Positions 368-53,170 of a DNA stretch of 64,000 nucleotides are shown here, one piece after another (positions within the stretch are counted from its first letter, which is position 1; every line of letters starts with the position of its first letter). The notes under the pieces are model-generated. The model worked only from the letters and a program-made list of their open reading frames with translations. It searched no databases and was not told the origin of the DNA. The stretch comes from Verrucomicrobiota bacterium (lineage in GTDB: Bacteria > Verrucomicrobiota > Verrucomicrobiia > JADLBR01). The DNA is taken from positions 1-64,000 of the forward strand of contig JAKQKQ010000041.1 of the NCBI GenBank assembly GCA_029560585.1, in the 5' to 3' direction. The position numbers were made by a program, and so were the translations under genes.

Positions 368-3300
368 ATGTTCCATTTGAATCGCACCTGCTCCAGGATG
401 CTTGTCGTTTCCACTCTGTGGATGCTGTCTGCGGGGACCGACCCATCATTTGCCCAACAGTACAGCCAGACGGACATCGACAGCCGACACAGGGTGGCAT
501 ACCCGGCCCAGCGGCTCCAACGCGACTGGCTGTACCAGGACCTCGGATCGCTCAAAGTCGAGAACGCTTTCACCGCCAGAGATTCCAACGCGGTGGAGAA
601 GAAACTGATGGCGTCAGTGCTGAAGACGTTGAAATCCGTCAGTGCGGACCCTGGGATCGAGGAACTCGAAAAAGCATTCGAGAGGCTTTCTGACGCCGGG
701 AGACCGGGGTCCGATCCCGCGTGGCCCGAGCTGTATTTCAACGCGTGCCGACTCCGCCGCTCCGCGCGACTAGCCCACGCTTTCCAGCGCCAGCCCCGAA
801 CGTTCATTTACGCGAAGCACTTCGTTTTCGGCGACGCCCAGGCCATGTTCGCGATGACCGACCACCTGTCCGACGCTGTCTTCCGCGAAACCGGACGCGA
901 TTACCGCATGGGCGCGCAACTCTGCAAAATGCGTGTGAACGAAGATGGCACCGTCTCCACGGAGGTCATCCTCGACTGCCCGGACGGCATCGTCCGCGAC
1001 CCGTCTCTCTCCTATGACGGCAAGACGCTTGCATTTTCCATGCGCACGGCGGATCAGGATCACGGCGGCGACTTTCACCTCTACGTGATGGATCTTGAAA
1101 AGAAGGAACCGGTGCAGATCACGTTCGGCGAAGGGGTTGCCGACATGGAACCGGAGTGGCTCCCGAACGGCGATCTGGTCTTCACCTCCACGCGCTGCAA
1201 TTTCTCCGCCCCCTGCTGGTGGTCGAGCGTCTGCAACCTCTACACGTGCGACTCGGAGGGCCGATTCATCCGGCGGCTTGGCGTGGATCACGGCCACACC
1301 GTTTTCCCGCACATGACGAACGACGGGCGGATCACCTACACGCGATGGGAGTACTCCGACCGCACGGCCGGCTATCTGCACTCTCTCTTCGTCATGAACG
1401 CCGACGGCACGGGTCAGACCGAATACTACGGGAACAATTCGCAGTTCCCTGCCGCCGTCCTGCACGCGCGGGCCGTCCCGAATTCAACGAAAATGATCGC
1501 AATCTCCGGCGCCCATCACATCGACCAGCGCGGCAAGCTCATCATGATCGACCGCACGATTGGCACCCAGGCCGGCGTTGGCGTCAAGTTGCTCGCACCG
1601 GAAAAGGACTATCCGTGCCTGGAAAGTCACGGCACGGGCGGTGCTGTCGTGCATGATACTGGCGGTGATCAGTGGCAGTACCCCTATGCGCTCGATGAAG
1701 ACAACTACGTCGTCTGCTATTGCCCCGAAGGCGGACCGGTCCGGGGGCTCAAGGGGATCAACGCCAAGGGGACCGTCGGGGCACCGGCCTTTGGCATCTA
1801 CTGGCAACATCGCCGGGGTGCCCGCGAATTGCTTGTTTACGATCCGACGATCTCATCCGGACAGCAAATCCCGCTTGCCCCACGCCCCGGGGCGTTCAAC
1901 CGGATTTCTCAGGTCGACGAGCGCAAGAACACTGGCCTGTTCTACGTGCAGAACATTCATTTCGGCCCTGGACTCCAGGGCGTCAAGCCGGGGACCGTCA
2001 AAAGGCTGCGGGTCGTCGCGCTGGAGTTCCGCTCCAAAGGGACCGTCGCGCTCGGACTTCATCCGTGGGGCGGCCATCAGACCGCGCCCTGTGCCATCAA
2101 CAACGGATCCTACGATGTGAAGCACGTGCTCGGCGAGGTCGACGTCGAAACCGACGGCAGTTGCTATTTCGAGTGCCCGTCCCGCGTCCCGGTCTATTTC
2201 CAGTTGCTCGACGCTCGTGGCCGCATGGTTCAGAACATGCGCAGTTGGACGATGGTCTTGCCGGGCGAGACCTTCGGCTGCCTCGGCTGTCACGAGGCCA
2301 AGAACAGCACGACGCCTGACCGCTTCTATACCGCCCAAGCGATGCGAAAGCCCCCGCAAACGTTGCGGTCGCCGCATGCGCCAGGTGACGAGCCTGTCCC
2401 GGAAAGGGTGCGCTTCCAGACAGATTCCCAGAAGCGGGCGATGGCCTACCTCGGTTCCAACGCGCCCCAGGGCATGGATGTGCCGATGGGATTCAGCTAC
2501 ACAAGGGAAATTCAACCGGTCTGGGACGCGCACTGTATCCAGTGCCACGCCGGCTCGAAAAATCCCGAGAAGGCGGACGTCCCGCTCAACCTCTTGGGGG
2601 ACTACCGGCCCATCACCAACGGGGAAATCTACGGACGTGCCAAATGGCGTCTCACGCGCCGTCCCTACGGCAACGTGACGCAGGGCAACCCCGGTCGCAA
2701 TTTCTCAGAATCCTACATCGCGCTGACCGATTTCGGTTACAACGCAAAAATCCCGGTGGATGGATCGGGCGGCAAAGCGGTCGCCGCCACCGACAAGGTC
2801 TATCTCTCGTATTTTGACGGCAAGCCGGAAAATGTCCCGAACCCCGACATGCTGGGTTATTGTGCGGACGAATACGCCGGCAAGGGAATCATCAACTGGC
2901 TCCATGTCTCCAGCGCCTGCGCGATGCTTCCGCCCTACAGTTACGGCTCCTGCTCCTCGCCGCTTATGAATTATTTGGAGCCCTCCCACTACGGCGTCCA
3001 GCTTGCCGACGAGGAAAAGAGCAAGGTCGCCTGCTGGATCGATCTGAATGTCCCGTACTGCGGTTCCTGGATGGAACTCAACTTCTGGGACAGGCTGAAC
3101 CATGCGACGGACTCCGGCTTGACGCCATGGTACGTCTACCGCGACAAAATGAGGCAGATCTACCTCTACTTCGAGGCGAAACGGCTCCGCGCGGCGGAGC
3201 TCGAGACGGATGCCATCGCCAAGCTCATCGCTCACGCGGACACCGGCCGGGCCTTCACTCCCTCCGATTTTCCCGCATTCGACTTCGGAGGGAAGGCCAA

Positions 3301-3850
3301 ACAGGCGACATTCGTCGCGGAGTACGACAACCTCCCGAACACCGTCCCGATATTCGGAGTGGCCGAAGGGCGCAACGCGCGCGGCGGCAGCCATGTGTCT
3401 GGCAATCCGGTCCGCAACCTTGCTCTCAACCCGGACGCCTACACCTACTGGCTGCGGAGTTATCCGCGTGTCACGGCCAACTCGCACTTCAAATACCTGC
3501 CGCGGTGCTCGCCCGTTTGTGCGATCGACGGGAAACGAAACGGCGGCGGATGGCGACCCAACCGCCGCACGGATCTCTGGCTCAATGTGGAGTTCGGCCG
3601 CGAGATCACGGCCGAGAAGGTTGTCCTGACTCTGGCCCCGCAAAATCCGCGTCGCACCTGGACATCCGCAACACTGGAATTTTCAAGCGGTGAAAGGCTC
3701 GACATCATACTCCGCTGCACAGCGGAACCGCAGACATTCACGTTCCCGGCCAAGTTCTGCTCGGCGGTAAGGCTGACGAATCTGAAACAGACCTTTCCTC
3801 TCACGGACAACGGCATCTCCGAATTCGAGGTCTGGGGAACCGACAACTGA
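368..3850 (+). CDS. Secreted PD40 propeller / HZS-alpha-like protein with two CxxCH motifs
   Basis: Start ATG at 368 gives 1160 aa with a signal peptide (about residues 1-29, ending SFAQ). An upstream in-frame extension runs through repeat R1 and is rejected. Residues about 210-420 carry WD40-like (TolB/PD40-type) strands such as DPSLSYDGKTLAFSMR and EPEWLPNGDLVFTSTR. Two haem-type motifs follow, CLGCH (about residue 638) and CIQCH (about 723), in the arrangement of proteins annotated as hydrazine-synthase-alpha-like middle domains. The last about 140 residues (NLALNPDAYTYWLRS onward, then EFGREITAEKVVLTLAP) resemble a discoidin-type sugar-binding fold. Inference: a periplasmic or extracellular c-type cytochrome-like protein. 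The substrate is unknown, and a role in anammox chemistry is not implied. Covalent haem attachment is not proven. Confidence 0.75.
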   Translation: MFHLNRTCSRMLVVSTLWMLSAGTDPSFAQQYSQTDIDSRHRVAYPAQRLQRDWLYQDLGSLKVENAFTARDSNAVEKKLMASVLKTLKSVSADPGIEELEKAFERLSDAGRPGSDPAWPELYFNACRLRRSARLAHAFQRQPRTFIYAKHFVFGDAQAMFAMTDHLSDAVFRETGRDYRMGAQLCKMRVNEDGTVSTEVILDCPDGIVRDPSLSYDGKTLAFSMRTADQDHGGDFHLYVMDLEKKEPVQITFGEGVADMEPEWLPNGDLVFTSTRCNFSAPCWWSSVCNLYTCDSEGRFIRRLGVDHGHTVFPHMTNDGRITYTRWEYSDRTAGYLHSLFVMNADGTGQTEYYGNNSQFPAAVLHARAVPNSTKMIAISGAHHIDQRGKLIMIDRTIGTQAGVGVKLLAPEKDYPCLESHGTGGAVVHDTGGDQWQYPYALDEDNYVVCYCPEGGPVRGLKGINAKGTVGAPAFGIYWQHRRGARELLVYDPTISSGQQIPLAPRPGAFNRISQVDERKNTGLFYVQNIHFGPGLQGVKPGTVKRLRVVALEFRSKGTVALGLHPWGGHQTAPCAINNGSYDVKHVLGEVDVETDGSCYFECPSRVPVYFQLLDARGRMVQNMRSWTMVLPGETFGCLGCHEAKNSTTPDRFYTAQAMRKPPQTLRSPHAPGDEPVPERVRFQTDSQKRAMAYLGSNAPQGMDVPMGFSYTREIQPVWDAHCIQCHAGSKNPEKADVPLNLLGDYRPITNGEIYGRAKWRLTRRPYGNVTQGNPGRNFSESYIALTDFGYNAKIPVDGSGGKAVAATDKVYLSYFDGKPENVPNPDMLGYCADEYAGKGIINWLHVSSACAMLPPYSYGSCSSPLMNYLEPSHYGVQLADEEKSKVACWIDLNVPYCGSWMELNFWDRLNHATDSGLTPWYVYRDKMRQIYLYFEAKRLRAAELETDAIAKLIAHADTGRAFTPSDFPAFDFGGKAKQATFVAEYDNLPNTVPIFGVAEGRNARGGSHVSGNPVRNLALNPDAYTYWLRSYPRVTANSHFKYLPRCSPVCAIDGKRNGGGWRPNRRTDLWLNVEFGREITAEKVVLTLAPQNPRRTWTSATLEFSSGERLDIILRCTAEPQTFTFPAKFCSAVRLTNLKQTFPLTDNGISEFEVWGTDN

Positions 3851-3879
3851 CTCGAAAAGATGTCGTATCGGTCGGGCAG

Positions 3880-3899
3880 CGAAGGGCTTGCGCCCTTCG
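3880..3899. terminator. Hairpin after the PD40 gene
   Basis: A perfect 8-bp stem, CGAAGGGC with GCCCTTCG, and a 4-base loop lie 30 bases past the stop. A second perfect stem with a TTCG loop (TGCCGCC/GGCGGCA) lies at 3983-4000. Both fall between convergent genes. Neither is followed by a T-tract, so a terminator role is inferred. Confidence 0.45.
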
Positions 3900-3931
3900 G
3901 CGGCGGCCGAGCGACGACCGAAGCCGGAATG

Positions 3932-4011
3932 TCGTAGAATCGCCTCTGGCGATCGGCTTCGCTACATTTTCCTAGCCGGTGGTGCCGCCTTCGGGCGGCA
4001 TGGGACCTGAC
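3932..4011. repeat. Composite REP-like repeat R3, copy 1
   Basis: An imperfect dyad (CGTAG..TCGCC-TCT-GGCGA..CTAC) is followed by CATTTT, then CCGGTGGTGCC, then GGGCGG and GCATGGGA. The same order of blocks occurs at 59886-60016. The element lies in the 232-bp gap between convergent genes. Confidence 0.5.
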
Positions 4012-4082
4012 CTGAAACTCGAAGCTGGATCGCCGGGTTCGGCCGGAAACCGGCATGACCGCGGCATGAGGCGCACCTTCGG

Positions 4083-5261
4083 TCAGAAACGAAAGGCGCG
4101 GTCGCTTTGTGGACTGTCGGCGCCGATGCGGAAGACCATCATTTCCCGCCGGGCCGGCTTGAGCGCGACCACGTCCACAAGCATCGTCTGGGTGCGGTCG
4201 ACCGGCGTCACGTAATCGCCACGCTCCGGCAGATCCTTCGCCGAAATAGTCCCGTATCCTTGAGTGATGACGAAGTTGATGCCATTCGTGACAGCCTGAT
4301 CGTTGAAATGACTGTCCCCGAACACACATCCGGCCAGTGTGGTCCCGCTGTTCTTGGCGAAATCCCACTGCACAGGGCCGGCCGCGCCCTTTGAGCCCGT
4401 TACAAAATCGGCCAGCATGGCCATGCAAAGGTTGCCATTCTTGATCGTTCCGGGCCTGCTCCCCTTCCATTTGCCGATTGTGGGATGGATGCATTTGTGC
4501 ACCAGCATCACCACGCACGTGCCGGTCGGGACATTCAGGCCGGCGGCTAAAAAATGCATCTGCTCCGTCGAGAACCCGACTTCGCCGGCGTCGCTTGTGT
4601 TGAGGAAGAATGCGCGGCATTTCTTCCCGGGAACATCGTAATATCCATAATCCTCGTTCGGACCAGTCACCAGCGGGACCCCCTTCCGCTTGGTCATGCC
4701 GTTGAACATCACGCCGTACTCCTTCGCCGAGAGCCGGAGCTCGGAGAAGAACTCGCCGTAGGCACGGCCGCTGTCGTGGTTGCCCATGCAGAACAAGACG
4801 GGCAGAGAAAAGTTCTTGTAGAGGTTGCGCTGGGATTCCAGACGCAGTTGCGCGTCCTCCCGCCTCGAAGGCTTCCAGCGCGGGTCGCGGTCGAACCCGA
4901 TGTCGCCGAGCTCTGCAAAAAAATCGGCCTTGAAGGCGACCGCGGCCCGCTGCGCGAACAGCACGTGGAACTTTGTATCGCGGAAATCCGGCGGCTGTGA
5001 AAACAGCGGGCGCGCCGCATGGATGTCGGTGATGACGGGAAAAACGACGGTATCATCCGCGCCGCTCCAGCGCTCGAAGCGCATCAGCGTCTCGTTGATC
5101 TGACGGTCCACCCAGGCGGGCACCGTGAATGCGGGTACCTGCGCCGACGGATCGCCGCTCCGCTCCACGCCACCGTCCGCGCATCCAATGCCGATGGCCA
5201 GGGCCACCAACCCCGCAAGGGCAAACAGAAACCCGCCACGGCAATCGCGTTCTCTCGACAT
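4083..5261 (-). CDS. Calcineurin-like metallophosphoesterase, probable lipoprotein
   Basis: Start ATG at 5261 gives 392 aa, beginning with a signal sequence that ends in a Cys (ALAIGIGC, Cys27). The longer in-frame ORF crosses the next promoter region and is rejected. The metallophosphoesterase signature is complete: DIH (residue about 67), GDIGFD, GNHD, VHKCIHP and GDSH. The enzyme should hydrolyse phosphomonoesters or diesters in the periplasm with a two-metal centre; the substrate cannot be told. The gene is divergent from the sialidase gene, 99 bp away, and an inverted repeat in that gap may control both. GCGAGG ends four bases before the ATG. Confidence 0.85.
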   Translation of the reverse strand: MSRERDCRGGFLFALAGLVALAIGIGCADGGVERSGDPSAQVPAFTVPAWVDRQINETLMRFERWSGADDTVVFPVITDIHAARPLFSQPPDFRDTKFHVLFAQRAAVAFKADFFAELGDIGFDRDPRWKPSRREDAQLRLESQRNLYKNFSLPVLFCMGNHDSGRAYGEFFSELRLSAKEYGVMFNGMTKRKGVPLVTGPNEDYGYYDVPGKKCRAFFLNTSDAGEVGFSTEQMHFLAAGLNVPTGTCVVMLVHKCIHPTIGKWKGSRPGTIKNGNLCMAMLADFVTGSKGAAGPVQWDFAKNSGTTLAGCVFGDSHFNDQAVTNGINFVITQGYGTISAKDLPERGDYVTPVDRTQTMLVDVVALKPARREMMVFRIGADSPQSDRAFRF

Positions 5262-5278
5262 CAGCCTCGCAAAGCCCC

Positions 5279-5309
5279 CATAATTCAAAATCTCTGGGCA
5301 CGAATTATG
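5279..5309. promoter_or_regulatory. Inverted repeat in divergent promoter region
   Basis: CATAATTC (5279-5286) and GAATTATG (5302-5309) are perfect 8-bp inverted arms separated by 15 bases. They are AT-rich in a GC-rich setting and centred between the metallophosphoesterase and sialidase starts. This fits an operator for a dimeric regulator; no regulator gene is adjacent. Confidence 0.45.
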
Positions 5310-5360
5310 AGTTCCCCGCAGGCAAAGACAAGGTCGCTGCCAAGTGACGAAAGGAATGTC

Positions 5361-6470
5361 ATGGCCATTGGAGTGAAGCTCGGGCGGCGGAACATGTTCA
5401 GAGTTATGGGTTGGAGGTCTGAGGCGGGGAGGGCCGTCCCATGGATTGCGCTGATCGCGTTGGCCGTCACCAGCTTCGGGGCGGCACCTGGGGACGGCCC
5501 CGCGAAACCCTATGTCGTCCAGGATGCGAGCGGCTACAACTCGTGGCCGATGATTCAAGCCATCGGAGAGAAGCTCGTGTGTGTGTATAGTCGAGGTTCG
5601 GGTCACTCAATCGGCGAGGATGCCCGCGCCGTTTACGCGCGCACATGCGCCGACTACGGAAAGACATGGACGGCGGAAACGGTTGTCGCCAACACGCCGG
5701 GCTATGGCGAAGTCGCCGTGGGGAAGGGGCTGGACGCCACCGGTGCGATGTTGCTCTGGGTGCGCCGAATCGGGCGGGATTGGAACCACGACCTCTACCG
5801 CACCACCGATGGCGTGACGTTCGCGCGCGTGGCAACACCAAAGCTCGCCGTGAGACCCATCCAGATCACCGACATCTTCGCGGTTCCCACGGTCGGGCTC
5901 ATGGCACTGTGGTTCGCAGGGGATTACCGTGACGACGGCCCGTGTCACTCATGGGGCACGTTGACCAGCAGTGACAATGGCGCAACCTGGACACAGACCC
6001 CCATGGAGTCCGGGCTAACCAAATCTCAGTGGCCGACCGAGCCCTCTGCCGTCCACCTCGGCAATGGCAGGATTTTGGCAATCGCACGGGTCGAGAAGGG
6101 CACGTCCCCGACGCAATTCCAATTCCAGATGGTCTCCACTGACTACGGTGCGACCTGGAAACGCGAGCAAACAAACATCGACGATATCCTGGCGTCAACA
6201 CCGAGCCTCATCCTCGATGCCAAGACCGGTTTGCTCAGCAACTACTACTATCGGCGGGGCAGGGGTGTCCTCCTGCGTCGAGTCGTTGACCCGGACAACG
6301 TGTTCGGCAATCCGCTCCATTGGTCTGCCTCCGAGGTTGTCGCGTTGGGGAGCGACGTCACGTTCGATGCCGGCAATGTCAATGCCACGGCAATCAGGGA
6401 CAGGCACTACGTCGCTTTCTATTCCGGCAAGGCGCCGGACACTTCGGTATTGGTATCCATTCTCCCATGA
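5361..6470 (+). CDS. Secreted sialidase-family protein (Asp-box repeats)
   Basis: Start ATG at 5361, with AAGGA five bases upstream, gives 369 aa. The N-terminus holds a hydrophobic signal segment (WIALIALAVTSFGA). Three Asp-box motifs of the SxDxGxTW type are visible: CADYGKTW, SSDNGATW and STDYGATW. They are spaced as in six-bladed exo-alpha-sialidase (BNR) propellers. Members release terminal sialic acids, but the fold is also used by other glycosidases and lyases, so the substrate is open. The stop overlaps the next ATG (ATGA), which suggests translational coupling with the GHL6-like gene. Confidence 0.85.
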   Translation: MAIGVKLGRRNMFRVMGWRSEAGRAVPWIALIALAVTSFGAAPGDGPAKPYVVQDASGYNSWPMIQAIGEKLVCVYSRGSGHSIGEDARAVYARTCADYGKTWTAETVVANTPGYGEVAVGKGLDATGAMLLWVRRIGRDWNHDLYRTTDGVTFARVATPKLAVRPIQITDIFAVPTVGLMALWFAGDYRDDGPCHSWGTLTSSDNGATWTQTPMESGLTKSQWPTEPSAVHLGNGRILAIARVEKGTSPTQFQFQMVSTDYGATWKREQTNIDDILASTPSLILDAKTGLLSNYYYRRGRGVLLRRVVDPDNVFGNPLHWSASEVVALGSDVTFDAGNVNATAIRDRHYVAFYSGKAPDTSVLVSILP

Positions 6471-20032: not shown

Positions 20033-20985
20033 CATGACGAAAGTCAACGCCCTCGTGCTCGCTTCCCTCTTCGCCTCCATCGGCCCGGCGTGGGCTCAGC
20101 ATCCCGTCGACGAGGGGTTCGAGGGCGCGTTGCCGGATTTCCACACGTATCAGGCGAGCTACACGTCCGACGGCAGCCGGGCCCACGGCGGCAAGCGCTC
20201 GCTGCGGGTGGCGCCGGACAAGGACTTCGGCGGCGCCTACTTCAAGCTGGACGGCACGCTCGACTTCGCCAGCGACTACGAGTTCACCCTGTGGGCTTGC
20301 GCGGGCAGCAACTGCGCCGTGAGCGTCTACATCTCGGCCTCGGGCGGAAAAGAGCGGTACACGGTCGCCAGCGCGCGCGGAGCTGATGGAGCTGGTCCCG
20401 GGGCTGTTTCCCTCAAACGCGACCGATTATGTGGTGAGCAAGCCGCCACTGCGCTTCATCGTGCTCGACGCCTCGTGGTGGCGCGACCGCGAGGGCAACG
20501 TCCTCAGCGCCTACGACCGGACGAAGGCGGTCGGCATCGCCATCAGGCCCGAGCAGCTCGACTGGCTGCGCGCGACGCTGGCGGCGGACGTCCGCACGCC
20601 CACCGTCGTCCTCTGGCACTCCGCGTTCTACAGCGAGCGTGGAGTCAGCTCCTGCGGCTACGACATGGGGCAGCCGCTGCTCGACAAGGGTGTCATGGAG
20701 ATCTTGGCGACGGCGCCAAACGTCGTGGCGACGCTCAACGGCCATCTGCACGTCAACGCCTGCGACAGGTACAAGGGCATCGCCTGCATGCAGAACGCCG
20801 CGTTCGCAGAGTGGCCGAACGCCTACAGCGTCTTCCGCGTCTATCCGGACCGCATCGAACGGGAGGTGCGGCAGGTGGGCAACCGCGGCTTCGTGAAGGA
20901 GGGCGTCCTCCCGGAGAAAGCGCTGACCTGGATGCTCTCTGTGCGTGACGGCGATCTCAGCAGCACGGTAAGCCTGTCGCGGTGA
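20033..20985 (+). pseudogene. Chimeric, frameshifted metallophosphoesterase remnant
   Basis: The first frame (20033 to about 20385) has a signal peptide (ALVLASLFASIGPAWA) and a jelly-roll start (DEGFEGALPDFHTYQ). The second frame (20386-20985, 199 aa) is the C-terminal half of a calcineurin-type phosphoesterase: VVLWHSAFYSERG and the metal motif NGHLHVN. The N-terminal metal motifs (DxH, GDxxD, GNHD) are missing. The join near 20380 changes frame. This looks like an internal deletion or fusion of two genes. Confidence 0.7.
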
Positions 20986-23994: not shown

Positions 23995-25896
23995 TCAGCG
24001 CAGGAAGAACCCCGTGATGGCCTCTGTCTTGTCCGGGTCGACGCCGTGCGGATGGTGGCCGAAGAGGTCGCGCTTGAGGACGTCGATCTTCCCGCCGGCC
24101 GCTTTGAAGCGGCCGGCGAACAGCTCGCAGTTCTTCGCCGGCGGCACCGTTTGGTCCTGCCCGCCGTAGAGCAGCAGCACGGGGATTCCGGCCTTCGCGA
24201 TAGCCTCGGCCAGGTTCACCGGCATGCGGGGGTCGGCGTTCCAGTTTTCGTCGGCGGGCGGAATCTTCGCCCAGGGGCCGGTCTGTTCCTGCCCGAAACC
24301 GTCGAAGTTAAGGAGCGGCGCATCGAGGTAGATTTTCCGCACGTTCGCCGGGTACTTCGCGGCGTAGCGCGTGGAGAAGAACCCGCCCCAGCTCATGCCT
24401 ACCAGGTTTGCCTGCGGGGCGAGGCCGAGCTCCTCAACGAGGTACTTTTGGAACGCTGCGAACTGCGCAAGGCCCGCGTCGGTCGCGCGCAGGTCGAACG
24501 CCTCCAGCGTCGCGTGGTGAAAGCCCTGCTCCAGCAGTTTCGGCACGCCGGTACGGTCCACAAACGCCTCGGCCCACTGCATCGTCCACGTCCAGGGTTT
24601 TCCCGCGAGGGGAGCGCGCGACGGCTCCACAGCCCAGGCGGCGCGACCGTTGAAATCGAACTTCGTGCGGCGGAAGCCCTGCCACATGTCCTCGCCGAGA
24701 ATCTTGTGGTCCTTCGCGATCTTCGCGCGGACGGACTGGCCCTCGCGCTCCGCGTCCATCTGCGCGTTGACGTGCTTGATGACGTCGATTTCCTTCGGGT
24801 CATAGGGGCGCAGCGACGGGCGGAACAGGTCGTGGAACCACTTCGTCATGGCGTAATTTTGGCCGCCGCCCTTCTCGATCTGCTTCCACATCCCTTCCCA
24901 AGGTTCGTACGTCTGGTACTTGCCGGCCACGAAGCCCCAGCAGGTGCAGCCGATGCGGTTCTGCGCGAAGAACGGATAGACGTCGAACACCTCGCAGTGG
25001 AGAATACGAGCCAGCCATTCGGTGTTGACCATGGGGCGGCCGAACCGCTCCTTCAGCGCCTTCGCCAGGGCCATCTGCGTGCCGAGGTCCCTGTAGCTGT
25101 GGTAGCTGATGATGTCGCTGCACGCCGCCGCCACGCCCTCGGCCGTGTCCTGCGCCGCGTCGCCGCGCGACGCCCAGACGTCCGCCGCGAGCGGCTGTTT
25201 CGGGTCGATCTGCCAGGCGAGTTCGAACAGCTTCTTCAGGTGCGGCGCGGAGACCTTCCCCCGCCCGTTGTTGCCCGGCTCGTTCCAAAGGTTCCAGAAG
25301 AGGATGCGGTCGTCGTCGCGGTATTTCGTCAGCAGCTCCTCGCACATCCGGTAGAACTTCGGGTTGAGATCGGGGTCGTCGAGCGACGTGTAGCCCAACG
25401 CGCCGGGAAAGGACCCGTGCTGGGACAGCTTGCGCCCGCCGTGGTAGCCCCAGTCGCAGGGCTGCGGACCGGGTTCGGGCAGCTTCCAGAGCTGCTTCGG
25501 GCGCGAGCAGTCGTTGCCGAGGACGATGATCGCCCGGATCTTGTGCTTCGCGCAGACCCCGAGCGCGCGGTCGAAACGCGCCAGGAAGCCGTCATGGTCG
25601 TGCACCCACACGCCGAAGCCCTCCTCGGCGAGGATGAGGCGCACGGCATTGAACCCGATCGACTCGGCGAGGGCGAGTTCGCGGTCCATCTCCTCGAAAC
25701 GCGCCTCACTGCCGAGCGCCTGCCACTGGTCCACGCGGTTGGCGGCGCTCGCGGGCATGTAGTTGCACCCGCGGATCCAGGGCTGGTCGTTGTACCACTC
25801 CCAGGCCTTTTCCTTCGTCCACGGCGCCGTCCGCGCGGCGAACAGCTCCGCCGCCGACAGGGCCGCCACCGCCATGATTAACTTTTTCGCATTCAT
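23995..25896 (-). CDS. Secreted bifunctional GH5-like hydrolase / alpha-beta esterase fusion
   Basis: 633 aa with a signal peptide (MNAKKLIMAVAALSAAELFA). Residues about 25-370 form a GH5/GH2-type barrel: IRGCNYMPASAANR, GFNAVRLIL, the acid/base Asn205-Glu206 in LWNEPGNN and the nucleophile Glu293 in MVNTEWLAR. Residues about 410-633 form an alpha/beta hydrolase with Ser502 in GMSWGG, an Asp in YGGQDQTVPP and a His in FGHHPHG. All catalytic residues are present in one frame, so both activities may be real. Inference: removal of acyl groups together with cleavage of a decorated glycan. GGGAAGGA lies before the start. Confidence 0.75.
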   Translation of the reverse strand: MNAKKLIMAVAALSAAELFAARTAPWTKEKAWEWYNDQPWIRGCNYMPASAANRVDQWQALGSEARFEEMDRELALAESIGFNAVRLILAEEGFGVWVHDHDGFLARFDRALGVCAKHKIRAIIVLGNDCSRPKQLWKLPEPGPQPCDWGYHGGRKLSQHGSFPGALGYTSLDDPDLNPKFYRMCEELLTKYRDDDRILFWNLWNEPGNNGRGKVSAPHLKKLFELAWQIDPKQPLAADVWASRGDAAQDTAEGVAAACSDIISYHSYRDLGTQMALAKALKERFGRPMVNTEWLARILHCEVFDVYPFFAQNRIGCTCWGFVAGKYQTYEPWEGMWKQIEKGGGQNYAMTKWFHDLFRPSLRPYDPKEIDVIKHVNAQMDAEREGQSVRAKIAKDHKILGEDMWQGFRRTKFDFNGRAAWAVEPSRAPLAGKPWTWTMQWAEAFVDRTGVPKLLEQGFHHATLEAFDLRATDAGLAQFAAFQKYLVEELGLAPQANLVGMSWGGFFSTRYAAKYPANVRKIYLDAPLLNFDGFGQEQTGPWAKIPPADENWNADPRMPVNLAEAIAKAGIPVLLLYGGQDQTVPPAKNCELFAGRFKAAGGKIDVLKRDLFGHHPHGVDPDKTEAITGFFLR

Positions 25897-26100: not shown

Positions 26101-26202
26101 CGCCTCGCCGCTGTGGCAGTGCGCGTACGGCTTTGGCTGGGATAGGACGCGTAAAGGAAAGCCCCGCGCCATCATCTGGCCCAGCGGCTCTCCCTCCCTC
26201 CC

Positions 26203-26488
26203 TCACGACAGCCCGACGACCGCATCGAAGAGGCCGTGGAGGGCCTCGCCGCGGCGCAGGGCCGCGTGGGGGTTGATCTCCCGATAGACGCCGGTGAAGG
26301 CGTTGAACAGGCTCCACGCGTTGCGGGGCGATGAAGTTCTTGAGGGGCTGGGGGGCGTACGGCACGTGGCCCTCTCGATGCCGTCCTCGCCGGTGCGCTA
26401 CACCTCCACGCGAAAGCCATGTTCCTCGAGGACCCTTGCGAATGAAACCCGCGATCTTCTGATGATCTTCGACAAGGAGGATTCTCAT
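26203..26488 (-). pseudogene. Response-regulator receiver fragment joined to another gene end
   Basis: The frame opens with MRILLVEDHQKIAGFIRKG, the start of an OmpR-type receiver domain. After one frameshift it continues as LEEHGFRVEV, stop, RTGEDGIERAT, which is still recognisable. The same frame then becomes NAWSLFNAFTGVYREI up to a stop at 26203. That tail resembles the C-termini of DUF932-type plasmid/phage proteins (uncertain). The phospho-acceptor Asp and the output domain are missing. Confidence 0.6.
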
Positions 26489-26504: not shown

Positions 26505-27701
26505 TCAATCGCATGGATGCACGTTGCCGCGGATGATGTCCAGCATGCGGGTGGAAACGATCTTCCGGGAATCGTCGTCCACGAGGCTGAAACGGTTTCC
26601 GTCGTTCGGGGTGCTGAGGTAGTTCCAGACGCAATAGGAGATGCCGTGTTCCTTCAGCAGCAGGATGACGTCATTCATCCAGTTTTCGCGGTAGCGGGTG
26701 TCGCAGTGCCGGATGGTGCCAAATTCCCCGCACCACAGGATCTTGTCCGGGTGCTCCCGCACGAAATCGAACGCGGGCTGCATCATGCTGCGCAGGACGC
26801 GCACGTCCATGCGATCGAGGCCGGCATATGGGGCATCCGATTCCCCGACGAAGCGTTTGTAGTCCCGATATGGCCCGATGTCGCCCGGATAGGCCATCTT
26901 GCGATTGTAATAGAGCGGGGCCGCCTGCAACACGCCGCGCTGATGCGTGAACTCGAAGGGCGAATAGAAATGGAATGTGTAGATCACGTTCTCGTCATCG
27001 AATAGCCGCAGATCCTTCAGCTTTTGGCAGGCATTCCAGCAGGTGCTTCCGACGACGATCTTGCGGGTCGGATTGACCTTTCGAATCTCGCCGATCGTCC
27101 GCGCCGCCAGCGCATTCCACGCCGCCGGATCAACATTTTTCACTTCGTTGAGCAATTCGAACACGACCCCGCCGTCGCCATGATAGCGCCGCTCAAACTC
27201 AAGCCAGAGCGCGACAAAACGATCTTGCAGGCCGGCGTCGTCGAGCAGCGCGACGGGCTCGGGGACATCGCAGTAATTTCCGATCGCCTTATGCAGGTTC
27301 AGCACCACGTTAAGCCCGCTCTCGCGGCACCACGCGACGAAATCGTCCACCCGGCAGAAAGTCCTTTCCCGAAAGACGCATGGTTTCTCCTCGAGCACGA
27401 TCTGGTCAAAACCGAGGCGGACATGGTCGACCCCGAACGACGCGATGTTCTCGACATCGGCCTTCGTTATATAGGTTGCAAAGTGTTCGTAGTCCCCTGG
27501 CGAGAGGCTCATCTTCCACTTATCCGGTAGGACGTTGAACCGTTTGTAATTCGTCAGCCATCCGCCGATGCCCATCCCATGTTCGAAGCCGACAAATCTC
27601 TTGGCGGCCACCGGGTCCCCGGCAGTCTTAGTCTTCGGCGGCTCCGCGGCCCCCGCGCAAACCGCCCCCATGGCAAGCATGCAGAGGACACGACTTGGCA
27701 T
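26505..27701 (-). CDS. Secreted GH5 family hydrolase (cellulase-like)
   Basis: Start ATG 27701, with AAAGG seven bases upstream, gives 398 aa and a short signal peptide (MPSRVLCMLAMGAVCAGA). A GTG at 27752 that overlaps the previous stop is an alternative. The GH5 pattern is complete: GVDHVRLGFD, NVVLNLHKAIGN, the acid/base Glu186 in FELLNEVKN and the nucleophile Glu326 in ILWCGEFGT. It is the last gene of a three-gene minus-strand operon (M20 amidohydrolase, GH172, GH5). Substrate could be a beta-glucan or mannan. Confidence 0.85.
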   Translation of the reverse strand: MPSRVLCMLAMGAVCAGAAEPPKTKTAGDPVAAKRFVGFEHGMGIGGWLTNYKRFNVLPDKWKMSLSPGDYEHFATYITKADVENIASFGVDHVRLGFDQIVLEEKPCVFRERTFCRVDDFVAWCRESGLNVVLNLHKAIGNYCDVPEPVALLDDAGLQDRFVALWLEFERRYHGDGGVVFELLNEVKNVDPAAWNALAARTIGEIRKVNPTRKIVVGSTCWNACQKLKDLRLFDDENVIYTFHFYSPFEFTHQRGVLQAAPLYYNRKMAYPGDIGPYRDYKRFVGESDAPYAGLDRMDVRVLRSMMQPAFDFVREHPDKILWCGEFGTIRHCDTRYRENWMNDVILLLKEHGISYCVWNYLSTPNDGNRFSLVDDDSRKIVSTRMLDIIRGNVHPCD

Positions 27702-27748
27702 GACCACGCCTTTCTTGAATCCATTTTCTCTCATGGCCGGATTCCACT

Positions 27749-29758
27749 TCACTCTGCCGGTTTCAGCATCAGGTAATCGATGCCCACCATGTACGATTTC
27801 ACAGCTTTCTCGTTCGCGCCAACGATTGTCACCGAGAGCGTGTTCTCCCCCGCCTTTAGGTCGAACGTGCCCAGCTCGATCTCATCGCCCACGAGGACGC
27901 GGTCATTATAAAAATCGATTGGTCCACCAGCCTCGTGGCCATTGATCGCAAATTTCGCGATGCCATAGTCGCGGGCTTTCAAGAACCGCCCAAATACCTT
28001 CTGGCGGCCGTCGGTGGGCGCATTGAAACCAATCACGAGCGTATCGCCGGGCCCCTGGCCGCCTTTCCACCACAGATGACGCTCGCCACTTGTGCCATCC
28101 CATTCCTGCGGCCCCGGCTGACCTTTTTTCTCGATGACCCGCATGCCCTCGCACTCGATCGCGCCCGGGACGCGAGAAGTCTGCAATGCCGGCGGCGGCC
28201 TCAGCGCGACATGATCCGGCGAAATCGCCGAAAAATTATCCGTGCCGCCGGGCGCCGCATACCAGTAATTCATGACGGACGTGTTCACCAGGCACTTCTT
28301 CCAGTGCCACAGCTCCATGTCGAAGCGAAAATCCCGCTGGAACGGGATGCGGTCGATGATGTGGAATCTGTTGACGCTGGTCCGGCCAAAATTCCTCGGC
28401 CCATCACAGCGGGTCTGATTGTGGAACGCGTGCGTGAAAAGCGCGCTAGAGCACCATGCGTAACCATAATAATCCTCCGTGCCGGTGCCGAAGTGGCTCG
28501 GGAATCTCTCGCCATCCACATATATTTTTTCATCCCCCTCGCCCCACCACTCTTTCACCGGGTTATCGATGGCAAAGGCGACGCCGACAAAGACGCCCAT
28601 TCCGGTCGCCGCGATATAATTCCAGTCGACTTTCGGATCTGTGGGAACGTCATGCTGAATCCGCCATTTTGCATGAAACAGCATCGTCCGATCCGTCCAC
28701 GGCCGGGGCCCGATGGCAATGCTGCCTTTCAGCGCGACCGGTCCCTTGTTCAGATTCTTGGCTGTGATGCGGACTTTCTTCCTGAATGGCATCACCCACT
28801 TGCATTGCATCCGTCCATCCTTTGAGACTTGGAGCGGCAGCGAATCGAACGGATTCACGCCCGGTCCGCTGCCAAAGAAATCCCCCAATGGCGCAGCGAC
28901 CGTCGTCTCGCCATCAAACATAATTTCCAGCAGGACGGCCCTGAGCACCGGCTCATCCCGGTCCCCGGACGGATTCCATCGCAATGCTAAATCTTTGACC
29001 TCGGCCGGCCCCTCGAATGAGCCAAGGACCCCAGTCTCCCCCGGGGCAATTGTCGTTTCAAACGCGACTGGCGCATCGCCGGCCGAAGCGAAGTTGATCT
29101 TGTCGGGGTTCTCGAGCGCGCCTGCGATCGATTCAATCGGGTCGCGCAACGCGCCTATCTGCTCTTGCTTGAAGGAGACGACCTTTGTGTCGTGGGCATA
29201 AGTGCGGTAATTCACGTGATAGTAGAACTTGCCCTTATCGCTCGTGATCTTGCAGCGCCTTGCGTACGGGATGGGGAAATACAGGTTCCAGCCCCTGCTG
29301 TATTCGCCTGCGATCGGCCGGGGCAGACCGGGATACTTCCCGCCAAGAAGATCCTTCATGCCCGCCTCAAGCGCCGGGTCCGCCTCGCCATCTATATATA
29401 TCCGCATGACGCCATCCGGATTGGCAGACCAGATCCGGACGATGGCGCCCGGGCCCTCGGCGTCCATCATGACGAATTCTGTTCGCCCCGATATATTCTC
29501 TGTCCGAAGGTATTGGCCGCAGTCCCCGTTGGCAAACCACCCGTCGGTCGGGGATTTCGATGCCCTGTCCCACGATGAGAACTGCCTGCATGTGTAGGCG
29601 GGGGCCGGGAATTCCGCCAACTGCGACAGATTGGTCAAGTCATAGAGCAGAGTGGCCGTGCTGATTGCCGGGGCATCGGCCGCCGCTCTTGCCGACACCA
29701 AGGCGCACCACAGCATCATCAGCGCAACGGGTCCCCTGATCATAAACTCAGTGGCCAT
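27749..29758 (-). CDS. Secreted GH172 (DUF2961) family protein
   Basis: 669 aa with an N-terminal signal segment (VALMMLWCALVSARA). ATG 29758 overlaps the upstream stop by 11 bases; ATG 29743 is also possible. The DUF2961 core is clear: SPTDGWFANGDCGQYLR, MMDAEGPGAIVRIWSANPDG and GTGTEDYYGYAW, whose Glu428 fits the conserved carboxylate of the family. The last about 130 residues (ERHLWWKGGQGPGDTLVIGF) form an extra jelly roll. Known GH172 enzymes act on arabinofuranose or fructofuranose linkages. The specificity here is unproven. Confidence 0.85.
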   Translation of the reverse strand: MATEFMIRGPVALMMLWCALVSARAAADAPAISTATLLYDLTNLSQLAEFPAPAYTCRQFSSWDRASKSPTDGWFANGDCGQYLRTENISGRTEFVMMDAEGPGAIVRIWSANPDGVMRIYIDGEADPALEAGMKDLLGGKYPGLPRPIAGEYSRGWNLYFPIPYARRCKITSDKGKFYYHVNYRTYAHDTKVVSFKQEQIGALRDPIESIAGALENPDKINFASAGDAPVAFETTIAPGETGVLGSFEGPAEVKDLALRWNPSGDRDEPVLRAVLLEIMFDGETTVAAPLGDFFGSGPGVNPFDSLPLQVSKDGRMQCKWVMPFRKKVRITAKNLNKGPVALKGSIAIGPRPWTDRTMLFHAKWRIQHDVPTDPKVDWNYIAATGMGVFVGVAFAIDNPVKEWWGEGDEKIYVDGERFPSHFGTGTEDYYGYAWCSSALFTHAFHNQTRCDGPRNFGRTSVNRFHIIDRIPFQRDFRFDMELWHWKKCLVNTSVMNYWYAAPGGTDNFSAISPDHVALRPPPALQTSRVPGAIECEGMRVIEKKGQPGPQEWDGTSGERHLWWKGGQGPGDTLVIGFNAPTDGRQKVFGRFLKARDYGIAKFAINGHEAGGPIDFYNDRVLVGDEIELGTFDLKAGENTLSVTIVGANEKAVKSYMVGIDYLMLKPAE

Positions 29759-32014: not shown

Positions 32015-32197
32015 ATCAACGACACGCCCGGCGATCGCATCGATAAGAAGGTGGTCGTATTCGATTAGAGCGAACGCGCGCAGTTCGCCGCCCGGGCGGT
32101 TCTTTGCCAGCGCGTACCAGTTGTCCCTGTGCGCGACGAGCCGCAGGGGCTCGGTGAGGTAGTCGCGCTCGGTGCCGTCGAGGCGGCGGTAGCGCGG
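32015..32197 (-). pseudogene. WYL-domain regulator fragment
   Basis: VPRYRRLDGTERDYLTEPLRL, then HRDNWYALAKNR, ELRAFALIEYD and HLLIDAI match the WYL domain, including the D-W-Y-A-L-A strand. No helix-turn-helix precedes it, and the continuation downstream is lost. It is read as a relic of a transcription regulator. Confidence 0.5.
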
Positions 32198-49607: not shown

Positions 49608-52600
49608 ATGAACCCCGATCCTCGCCCCGATCCGCTGGCAGGCACGCAGCTGGGGGATTTCGTGATCGAGGGCCTGGTGGGCAAGGGGGCGATGGGCGCG
49701 GTCTACCGGGCGCGGCAGATCAGCCTCGGCCGTCCCGTGGCCCTCAAGGTGATGCGGCCGGAGTTCGCCGCGGAGGAGGAGATGGTGGCGCGCTTCCGGC
49801 GCGAGGCGCGGGCCGCCGGCGCGATCTCCCACCCGCACCTGATCGGGATCTACTCGTTCGGGCAGGAGGGCGAGACCTGCTTCTTCGCGATGGAGCTGGT
49901 GGAGGGCCAGAGCCTGCGGGCGCACCTCAAGCGGGGGGAGCGCTTCACGGAGGCGGAGTGCCTGGAGATCGGCCGGCAGGTCCTGGCCGGGCTGCGGGAG
50001 GCGCACCGCGCGGGCATCGTTCACCGCGACATCAAGCCCGACAACCTCATGCTCGATGATCGCCACCAGGTCCGGGTGGCCGATCTCGGGCTGGCGCGGG
50101 TGGCGGGGCCGGAGTCGGGCCTTGCGGTGACGATGACGGGGATGATGATGGGCACGCCGCTCTACATCGCCCCGGAGCAGGCCGAGGGCCGGCGGGAGGT
50201 GGACTACCGGGCCGACTTCTACGCGCTCGGGGCCACGCTTTACCATCTCGCCACGGGCAGGCCGCCCTACGACGGATCCTCGGGGGTGGAGGTGATCGGC
50301 AAGCACCTCCATGCGCCGGTGCCCGACGCGCGGGCGAGCAACTCGGGGCTGAGCAGGCCGTTCGCCGAGCTGTTGAAGAGACTCATGGCGAAAAAGCCGG
50401 AGGATCGGCCGCAGAAACACTCGGAGATCGAGCGGGAGCTGGATCGGTGCGGGGCGCTCCTGGCCGAGGAGTACAAGGAGCAGTCGCGGATCGCGAGAAG
50501 CGCGGCGCTCAAGGTGGTGAAGCGCTCGTGGGTGGACGAGCCGGTGACGTGGATCGCCGCGGCGGTGGTTGCGGTGGTGCTGGTGGCCGGGGGGTTCCTT
50601 TACCCGCATCTCTCGAAGGGGCCGGATGCGGACGCGGTGCTGGGGATGGGATCTACGATGGCCGATGGAAGATTGCCGACCGGGGATGGAACCACGAAGG
50701 GCACGAAGGACACGACCCCTGAAAGTTCAAGCTCGAGATTCTCTAGCCCCGCGCCGGTAGCCTCCAGCCTGATAGCGGCGACGAAGGACAAGCCCTTCGT
50801 CAATTCCCTCGGCATGAAATTCGTGCCGATGCCGGGAACGAAAGTGCTCTTCAGCATCTGGGAGACCCGCGTCCGGGACTTCGAGGCGTTCGTCAAAGAG
50901 ACCGGCTACAACTGGAACGAGAAACTGACTTTCAAACAATCCCCCGATGATCCGGTGGTGAAAGTGTCCTGGGACGATGCAAAGGCATTCTGTGAATGGC
51001 TGAGCAAGAAGGAGGGGAAGCAGTACCGCCTGCCGACCGACGAGGAGTGGAGCGCTGCGGCGGGCGGCGCGGCATACCCGTGGGGTCACGAGTGGCCGCC
51101 GCCGCCGGGGACGGGGAATTTCCCGGGGGAGGAGTCGAAGCTCGGCGAACCTGACGATCCGAAGGACGAATGGATGACGGAGGGCTACCGCGACGAGCAT
51201 CCGCGCACCGCGCCGGTGGACAGCTACAGGGCGGTCCCCTGCGGCTTGTACCATCTAGTCGGCAACGCATGGGAATGGTGCGAGGACTGGTTTGATCAGG
51301 GGATCCTGAAGAAGCACCGGGCCGCCGGGCCATATGAGCCGAAGCCGGAGGATCTGGCCGACATCATGAGGGGCGACGTGCGCAAGGTACTGCGTGGCGG
51401 CTCGTGGCTCCATGGCCGTCGCGACAATCTGCGCTCCTCGAACCGCCATCACACTCCCCCCGCCTCTCGGTTCATTGACAACGGTTTCCGGTGCGTGGTC
51501 GTGTCACCTTCATCGGCGGCGTTGCCAGCGGTAGCCCAAGCTCCCTCAACGCATGTGGCTCCCGAGGTCGCCTCCGCCACGAAGGAAAACCCCCTCGTCA
51601 ACTCCCTCGGCATGAGGTTCGTCCAGATCCCCGGAACGCAGGTCTTGTTCAGCATCTGGGAGACACGCGTCAAGGACTTCGGGACGTTCGTGAGCGAGAC
51701 AGGTTATGACTGGCACGAGAAACCGTCCTTCGAGCAGGGGCCGGATCATCCGGTGGTGCAGGTCTCCTGGAACGATGCCAAGGCGTTCTGCGACTGGCTC
51801 AGCAAGAAAGAGGGCAGGCAATATCGCCTTCCGACCGACGACGAGTGGGATGCGGCGGCGGGCAGTGCAATATACCCTTGGGGTGATGCGTGGCCGCCAC
51901 CGGCCGGGGCCGGAAATTTCGCGGGGGAAGAGTCAAAGCTGGGCCAGTCAGAGGATCCGAAGGATGAGTGGATGACAGAAGGTTATCGCGACGAGCATCC
52001 GCGCACCGCGCCAGTGGGCAGCTACAGGGCGCTCGAGTCCGGGTTGTACGATCTCTCCGGCAACGTTTGGGAATGGTGCGAGGATTGGTTCAACCAGAGA
52101 ATGTTGGAGAAGCGCTGGGCGGCTGGGTCGTATGAGCCTACGCCGGAGGATCTGGCCGACATCGTGAAGGGCGACGTGCGCAAGGAGTTGCGTGGCGGTT
52201 CCTGGCGCGCTGCGGATCGCCTCAGCCTGCGATCTTCGTACCGCGTTCACAATCCACAATCCCATCGGGCGTATAACGTCGGCTTCCGCTGTGTGGTGGT
52301 GGGTCCGGTGTCGGTAACATCACCGCCTGCTTCGGCCCTGTCGTCGGCGGTTTCCATCCCGACAGAAGCGACCAAAGACAAGCCATTCGTCAACTCGCTG
52401 GGCATGCGATTCGTCCCGGCGCACACGCCCGGGGTGCTGTTCTGCATCTGGGAGACGAGGGTGATGGATTTCGATGCGTTCGCCGGGGCCCGCGCCATGA
52501 CACCGGCAATCGGATGTGGGTCATGCGAGCCGATGGCTGGCAGGAGCGGGACGGGTACAGCTGGCGCAATCCGGGATTCGAGCAGGGCGCGGACCATCCG

Positions 52601-53170
52601 GTGGTCGGTGTGAACTGGGAGGATGCGAGGAGCTTCTGCGCGTGGCTGACGGACAAAGAGCGCCGCGAAGCGAGGATCGGGCCGGGCGACCAGTATCGTC
52701 TTCCCACAGACCATGAGTGGAGCATGGCGATGGGGATCGGGGCCAGGGAGGACCCGCGGGTGAGTCCGAAGGAAAAGGTCGGCAAGATCCTGGGCGTCTA
52801 TCCCTGGGGAACACAGTGGCCTCCGCCCAAGGGGGTGGGTAACTACGCGGGTCAGGAATCGCGGATCGGCCAGGAACCGAGTTCCTGGGGAAGCATCGAT
52901 GAGTATCGCGATGGGTTCTCAAGGACTGCCCCGGTGGGAAGTTTTCCGCCAAACGTGCTGGGGCTTCATGATATGGGAGGCAACGTCTGGGAGTGGTGCG
53001 AGGACCTCTATGATCCCGGCCAAAAGGGTCGCGTGTTGCGCGGCGCCGCATGGAACAGCGACACCGAGACGATTCTGCGTTCGTCCGGCCGTGACGACGA
53101 TCTTCCCGGACGTCGGTATAGCAACCTCGGGTTTCGTTGCGTTCTGGCGCGCTCTTCATCCAACCCATAA
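49608..53170 (+). CDS. Ser/Thr kinase - TM - three SUMF1/FGE-fold domains, frameshifted
   Basis: Start ATG 49608, nine bases after the previous stop and coupled to it. Kinase about 13-285 (GKGAMGAVYRA, HRDIKPDNLMLD at 140, VADLGLARV), TM about 312-331, then SUMF1 domains at about 390-632, 656-898 and from about 920. The first frame ends at 52613; the third domain continues in another frame to 53170 (GWQERDGYSWRNPGFEQ, GGNVWEWCEDLY). The break fits loss of one G at the GGGG tract 52486-52489; with it the protein would be 1187 aa. All three domains lack the catalytic Cys pair (RGGSWLHGRRDN, RGGSWRAADRLS, RGAAWNSDTETI). Confidence 0.8.

Follow-up and report, generated by a model that had tools for sequence, protein, structure and literature searches.

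Enzymes that join a glycosidase and an esterase in one chain are known in principle. In CtCel5C-CE2 of Clostridium thermocellum, an N-terminal GH5 cellulase is followed by a dockerin and a C-terminal CE2 esterase, and CtCE2 binds cellulose via its active-site region and boosts the cellulase (PMC2661963). Closest in fold to the glycosidase described below is Op5Man5 of Opitutaceae TAV5, a GH5 exo-beta-1,4-mannosidase which has a C-terminal trimerisation domain and lacks a secretion signal (PMC8233224). The same paper gives R58, N155, E156, H240, E281 and W317 as the set common to five GH5 exo-mannosidases.

The window analysed here, a 64,000-nucleotide stretch of contig from a Verrucomicrobiota bacterium, encodes a 633-residue protein that resembles CtCel5C-CE2 in carrying an N-terminal GH5 catalytic domain and a predicted C-terminal serine esterase in one chain. 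CtCel5C-CE2 alone has a cellulase, a dockerin between the halves and a CE2 esterase with a jelly-roll, whereas the window protein has a divergent GH5-like domain, a different esterase family and no dockerin; its structure model leaves no room for a jelly-roll or dockerin, and that layout is absent. With Op5Man5 it has the six active-site residues above in common, as matched by order and strand; unlike Op5Man5, it begins with a likely signal peptide. The preliminary description of this locus knew of no characterised enzyme with this domain order. Taken broadly this fails, given CtCel5C-CE2, but in the literature searched (titles and abstract openings) no paper was found on this pairing of GH5-like and esterase families. 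Thus, the glycosidase-esterase principle and the domain order were already known, the families paired here differ, and their pairing appears to be uncharacterised. Nothing established is overturned. Acyl groups hinder the breakdown of plant hemicellulose, and a single exported protein capable of both de-acylation and chain cleavage would be of practical use. The gene has the following features.

23995..25896, minus strand: fusion gene, 633 residues plus stop (open reading frame; 19 further alignable fusions)
25831..25896, minus strand: likely signal peptide, residues ~1-22 (sequence; low pLDDT; low conservation; similar leaders in most relatives)
24757..25818, minus strand: clan GH-A (beta/alpha)8 glycosidase domain, residues ~27-380 (Pfam Cellulase; model; GH5 mannosidase folds at Z 21-24)
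25279..25284, minus strand: N205-E206, putative acid/base, end of beta4 (invariant in 36/36 N-domain and 21/21 fusion rows)
25018..25020, minus strand: E293, putative nucleophile, end of beta7 (invariant in 36/36 N-domain and 21/21 fusion rows)
24703..24756, minus strand: junction, residues ~381-398, short, conserved and largely helical (66% identity over 379-402; model)
23998..24693, minus strand: alpha/beta-hydrolase domain, residues ~402-633 (Abhydrolase_1; own model; Z ~19-21 to S9 peptidases and esterases)
24391..24393, minus strand: S502 in GMSWGG, nucleophile elbow (S in 26/26 module rows and 20/21 fusion rows)
24154..24156, minus strand: D581, putative triad acid (invariant in 26/26 module and 21/21 fusion rows)
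24055..24057, minus strand: H614 in GHHPHG, putative triad base (invariant in 26/26 module and 21/21 fusion rows)

The minus-strand frame has GC of 0.64/0.44/0.90 at codon positions 1/2/3. An overlapping plus-strand frame (24046-25881) was rejected as a gene because its values, 0.91/0.44/0.64, mark it as a shadow of the GC-rich third codon position of the minus-strand gene. A single scan of public genome contigs found 114 relatives, of which 80 were kept, and in at least 17 loci (L057, L059-L066, L068-L074 and L106) one open frame spans both halves. Two further fusions are incomplete, L058 being cut by a contig end and L067 carrying a frameshift in the N-terminal part; L077 is without residues 1-179 and was left out of the fusion alignment. 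The 17 complete and two incomplete fusions align with the window protein through both halves at 54-79% identity, and since these 19 come from other public records, a chance frame or assembly artefact was ruled out. They derive mostly from metagenome-assembled genomes labelled Kiritimatiellae, Lentisphaerae, Verrucomicrobia or uncultured bacterium, and many of the isolate names are of rumen, omasum or digester type; L070 is labelled Bacteroidales.

AlphaFold2 modelled the whole protein from a 70-row alignment with mean pLDDT 93.5 and pTM 0.87, placing the C-terminal ~250 residues in one alpha/beta-hydrolase domain directly after the barrel. The protein is probably exported, as judged from its hydrophobic N-terminus and from the first 25 residues, which change faster than the rest (45% versus 69% identity in the fusion alignment). 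A similar leader is found in most relatives; as read, L072 and L073 apparently lack one. Asn205, Glu206, Glu293 and Ser502 stand at the numbers given in the preliminary description, on a minus-strand gene, and its reading of two domains with both catalytic sets intact is borne out by sequence, model and conservation alike. A Pfam search, which it had proposed as a check, matched both halves to catalytic domains, and no known non-catalytic module was found in either half by Pfam and NCBIfam.

The glycosidase half matches Pfam Cellulase (PF00150, GH5) over residues 76-275 with an E of 1.9e-5, at 24.8 bits against a curated cut-off of 23.5; 25 of 36 glycosidase-domain relatives match the same family at E <= 0.01. 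These 36 rows, like the 26 esterase-module rows used below, are hand-picked subsets. On the AlphaFold2 model, with strands taken from DSSP and named by us within the two folds, R86 sits on barrel strand 2, strand 4 ends at N205-E206, strand 6 at H266 and strand 7 at E293, and W320 comes just past strand 8. R86, N205, E206, H266, Y268 and E293 are invariant over the 36 rows and W320 is kept in >= 90%; in a separate 16-row alignment R86, N205, E206, H266, E293 and W320 are all invariant. These six correspond to R58/N155/E156/H240/E281/W317 of the GH5 exo-mannosidases, mapped by order and strand rather than by superposition. With the whole protein and the esterase half alone as fold queries, a VIA-align re-check of 1000 PDB chains gave GH5 exo- and endo-mannosidases, GH164 and GH42 as the best folds for the barrel. 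Op5Man5 came top (Z 24.4, rmsd 3.2, 285 aligned, 16% identity), and the rows after it run from Z 23.2 down to 21, so they are mostly near ties; the nearest fold relatives, GH5 mannosidases, are 12-17% identical. A sequence profile search of the PDB gave a best E of 4.8e-8 to an endoglucanase and 4.3e-6 to Op5Man5 (7bob, listed as Endo-beta-mannanase), and PDB sequence searches found no close sequence relative of either half. The "GH5-type" label of the preliminary description therefore stands at the level of clan and fold and for the six residues, but the Pfam match is weak and gives no subfamily. Sequence and model support a divergent GH5-like branch. Following beta3, a long conserved loop (129-177 in alignment and model) offers a hint, and only that, of a steric block closing the minus subsites as in a GH5 exo-mannosidase. 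Unfused relatives annotated "cellulase family glycosylhydrolase" or "glycoside hydrolase family 5 protein" share the glycosidase domain at 29-66% identity and, unlike the window protein, have no esterase half; no characterised member was found among them.

The C-terminal half matches Pfam Abhydrolase_1 (E 2.3e-15), and NCBIfam yields general alpha/beta-hydrolase models alone, far under their cut-offs. Modelled by itself it reaches pLDDT 93.9 and pTM 0.91. S502 stands between strand 496-501 and a helix, as in a nucleophile elbow; D581 and H614 are named as triad members because the model places them directly after strands 573-578 and 604-609. A Ser-Asp-His triad in an alpha/beta-hydrolase fold is thus present in sequence and model, and the S, the D and the HHPH motif are invariant over the 26 esterase-module rows, drawn from stand-alone and otherwise fused proteins (L070 not among them). 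Fold scores are close: dipeptidyl peptidase IV at Z 20.6, acylaminoacyl peptidase and an Oleispira esterase at 20.2 each, a gut carbohydrate esterase at 19.2 and BTAxe1 at 19.0. S-formylglutathione hydrolases and sugar esterases (3i6y, 6xyc, 7dwc) share the alpha/beta-hydrolase core at Z 19-20, but at 12-15% identity and in a near tie with S9 peptidases their kinship is of superfamily level only. No numbered CE family is indicated, as Pfam and NCBIfam give general hydrolase models and the fold scores favour no single family. The fold is hence known and its family not singled out, and because S9 peptidases score as high, the modelled fold is no proof of an esterase. Of the term "esterase" in the preliminary description, fold and triad hold, and the reaction is a prediction from sequence and model.

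The esterase module also stands alone in many loci. In seven scanned fusions other than the GH5-like ones, the preceding domain is GH29 in four, and alkaline phosphatase, BD-FAE and a glucuronoyl esterase in one each. The alkaline phosphatase fusion is L107 98-2629. In L132, the open frame 2736-5780 holds two BD-FAE-type matches followed by the esterase module, possibly a triple esterase.

Conservation was read from a fusion alignment of 21 rows, 20 of them distinct (L001, the window's own copy, repeats P0001). N205, E206, E293, D581 and H614 are kept in 21/21 rows (20/20 distinct) and S502 in 20/21 (19/20 distinct), and the two halves have equal mean identity to the window protein (0.69 and 0.69). 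The exception is L070 (5001-6764), a fusion relative with a dead-looking esterase half, in which GMSWGG reads GTGEEG and HHPH reads HYPL while the glycosidase glutamates are retained. Over eight close pairs of relatives, dN/dS was 0.05-0.16 for the glycosidase half and 0.06-0.19 for the esterase half. Against the window gene it was 0.11-0.60 over 19 pairs, apart from the glycosidase half of L070, for which dS was infinite; dS was partly saturated in this comparison. Purifying selection acts on both halves.

Taken together, the protein is probably an exported bifunctional carbohydrate-active enzyme in which a GH5-like glycosidase and a serine esterase cooperate on an acylated substrate. The glycosidase would be a retaining beta-glycosidase, with E206 as acid/base and E293 as nucleophile, cutting a beta-linked and probably hemicellulose-type chain or oligosaccharide, possibly from the chain end as GH5 exo-mannosidases do. 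The esterase (S502, D581, H614) would strip acyl groups, acetyl being the simplest assumption, from this substrate or one next to it, and their removal would keep the glycosidase from being stopped. A substrate of mannan or xylan type is a guess. This bifunctional reading is supported by the model, in which the catalytic residues sit at the ends of the strands that carry them in clan GH-A and in alpha/beta hydrolases, by sugar-degrading neighbours in the window and near some relatives, and by the other carbohydrate-active domains that the esterase module follows. Coupling of de-acylation with chain cleavage, as the preliminary description had proposed, is plausible; it is weakened by L070, which lost the serine but kept the glycosidase, and by two relatives that nest among the fusions yet have no esterase half.

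A more far-reaching interpretation, which we hold to be possible and rather doubtful, is that the C-terminal domain represents a carbohydrate-esterase family not yet described, a module that moves in gut Kiritimatiellota and relatives and has become attached to five or more kinds of enzyme (GH5-like glycosidase, GH29 fucosidase, alkaline phosphatase, BD-FAE and glucuronoyl-esterase-like), that the GH5-like domain makes up a GH5 subfamily with no characterised member, and that the two together make a new de-acylating glycosidase. The recurring module is a concrete candidate, open to testing, for a new family of esterases in little-known rumen and digester bacteria.

We consider it unlikely that the C-terminal half serves mainly for binding or structure, with its esterase activity weak or lost. 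The lost serine of L070 would fit such a role, as would the cellulose binding and cellulase boosting by CtCE2 (PMC2661963) and the trimerisation domain that Op5Man5, itself a barrel enzyme, bears at its C-terminus (PMC8233224). Against it, the module exists in stand-alone copies, S, D and H are kept in 26/26 stand-alone and otherwise fused rows, and the fold matches to GH42, GH164 and Op5Man5 stop short of the esterase half. It is similarly improbable that both halves act on different substrates, the fusion merely holding two secreted enzymes together or easing export. The module does occur alone in many loci and behind fucosidase, alkaline phosphatase and further esterase domains, but the alkaline phosphatase case is single and the junction is short, conserved and structured rather than a flexible linker. 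That the C-terminal half is a peptidase or other serine hydrolase instead of a carbohydrate esterase is very improbable: S9 dipeptidyl and acylaminoacyl peptidases are among its top fold scores (Z 20.6 and 20.2), but S-formylglutathione hydrolase, BTAxe1 and the gut carbohydrate esterase lie within 2 Z units with no family singled out, the module's partners are mainly sugar enzymes, and the protein has no S9-type propeller domain.

The history of the probable bifunctional enzyme was read from two quick trees, both made without bootstrap and with several long rows unsure. The glycosidase tree has 67 rows, with the frameshifted L067 left out and unfused genome-search rows thinned by an identity rule and a list. 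In it, 19 fused rows share one starred set (support 97) with two unfused ones, L075 and the second gene of L063, which nest among the fusions; the arrangement requires two changes. This fits one long-kept fusion followed by two losses of the esterase half, which would thus be dispensable. In the module tree (58 rows), fused rows are scattered among stand-alone modules, with nine changes, at least four of them forced by starred branches; L070 is a long, unsure branch there. Such scatter suggests that modules were exchanged or that the glycosidase half was lost repeatedly, and it is hard to square with a simple single fusion.

The fusion is rare around the window's own lineage. With the best three candidates per genome scored, a single-frame fusion was present in 8/387 genomes of a phylum draw, own genome included, and in the own genome only among the 384 of a class draw; apart from the own genome, none of the fusion-bearing phylum genomes belongs to the window's class. 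Among 57 relatives' genomes it was again present in the own genome only, and it is absent from the same-genus genome G001. Both trees place the window gene within a set of relatives from rumen and digesters. The window's IF-2 is 83% identical in G001 versus 43-47% in four fusion-holding phylum genomes; misbinning of the contig was rejected on this ground, and the contig fits its genome. Since the gene nests with rumen and digester relatives, is otherwise absent from the class draw and is missing from G001 despite the IF-2 match, it was likely acquired laterally. Composition does not decide: third-position GC is 0.90 in the fusion gene, 0.72-0.80 in most flanking sugar-enzyme genes, 0.91 in a short neighbour (20386-20985) and 0.82-0.88, like the fusion gene, in the window's kinase and IF-2 genes.

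Genes flanking the fusion in the window include a second GH5 gene (26505-27752), which Pfam recognises with an E of 1.2e-30, as well as genes for a DUF2961 protein, an M20 peptidase, a ceramidase-like protein and, with a match below the cut-off, a protein like DUF4434. DUF2961 includes GH172 enzymes. The sugar-enzyme region may itself be acquired, as the flanking GH5 gene has its best match at 71% in a genome of another class (G626) and at 32% in the same genus (five genomes searched); no close copy was present in G001. Twenty neighbour genes in related loci were scanned, 18 beside fusions, one in L100 and one beside the unfused L075. They include GH2, GH20 (two), GH78 and GH129 domains as well as NusA, acetyl-CoA carboxyltransferase, MmeI and AAA genes, and no constant neighbour of the fusion was found across these loci. 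Because the neighbours vary and include housekeeping genes, gene context gives no substrate. Of three plasmid loci with unfused homologues, one has GH43 and arabinofuranosidase genes, a second has sugar-transport and sugar-oxidation genes, and the third shows no sugar-specific pattern; at most, they hint at hemicellulose.

Several smaller features of the window were also seen. Upstream of the fusion gene, at ~26400-26488 on the minus strand, a frame starts MRILLVEDHQKIAGFIRKG, presumably like a response regulator, and then decays, with the look of a broken gene remnant. The intergenic pairs 25956-26100/34109-34253 and 21168-21315/36576-36720 are 73-77% alike within the window, with further similar stretches at ~26152-26330 and 32066-32194. 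These match many contigs of the same-genus genome at ~70-90%, as a dispersed repeat or decayed gene pieces would. Finally, 50778-51503 and 51576-52301 form a tandem internal repeat of 726 bases with 78% identity in a kinase-like gene region (49608-52613).
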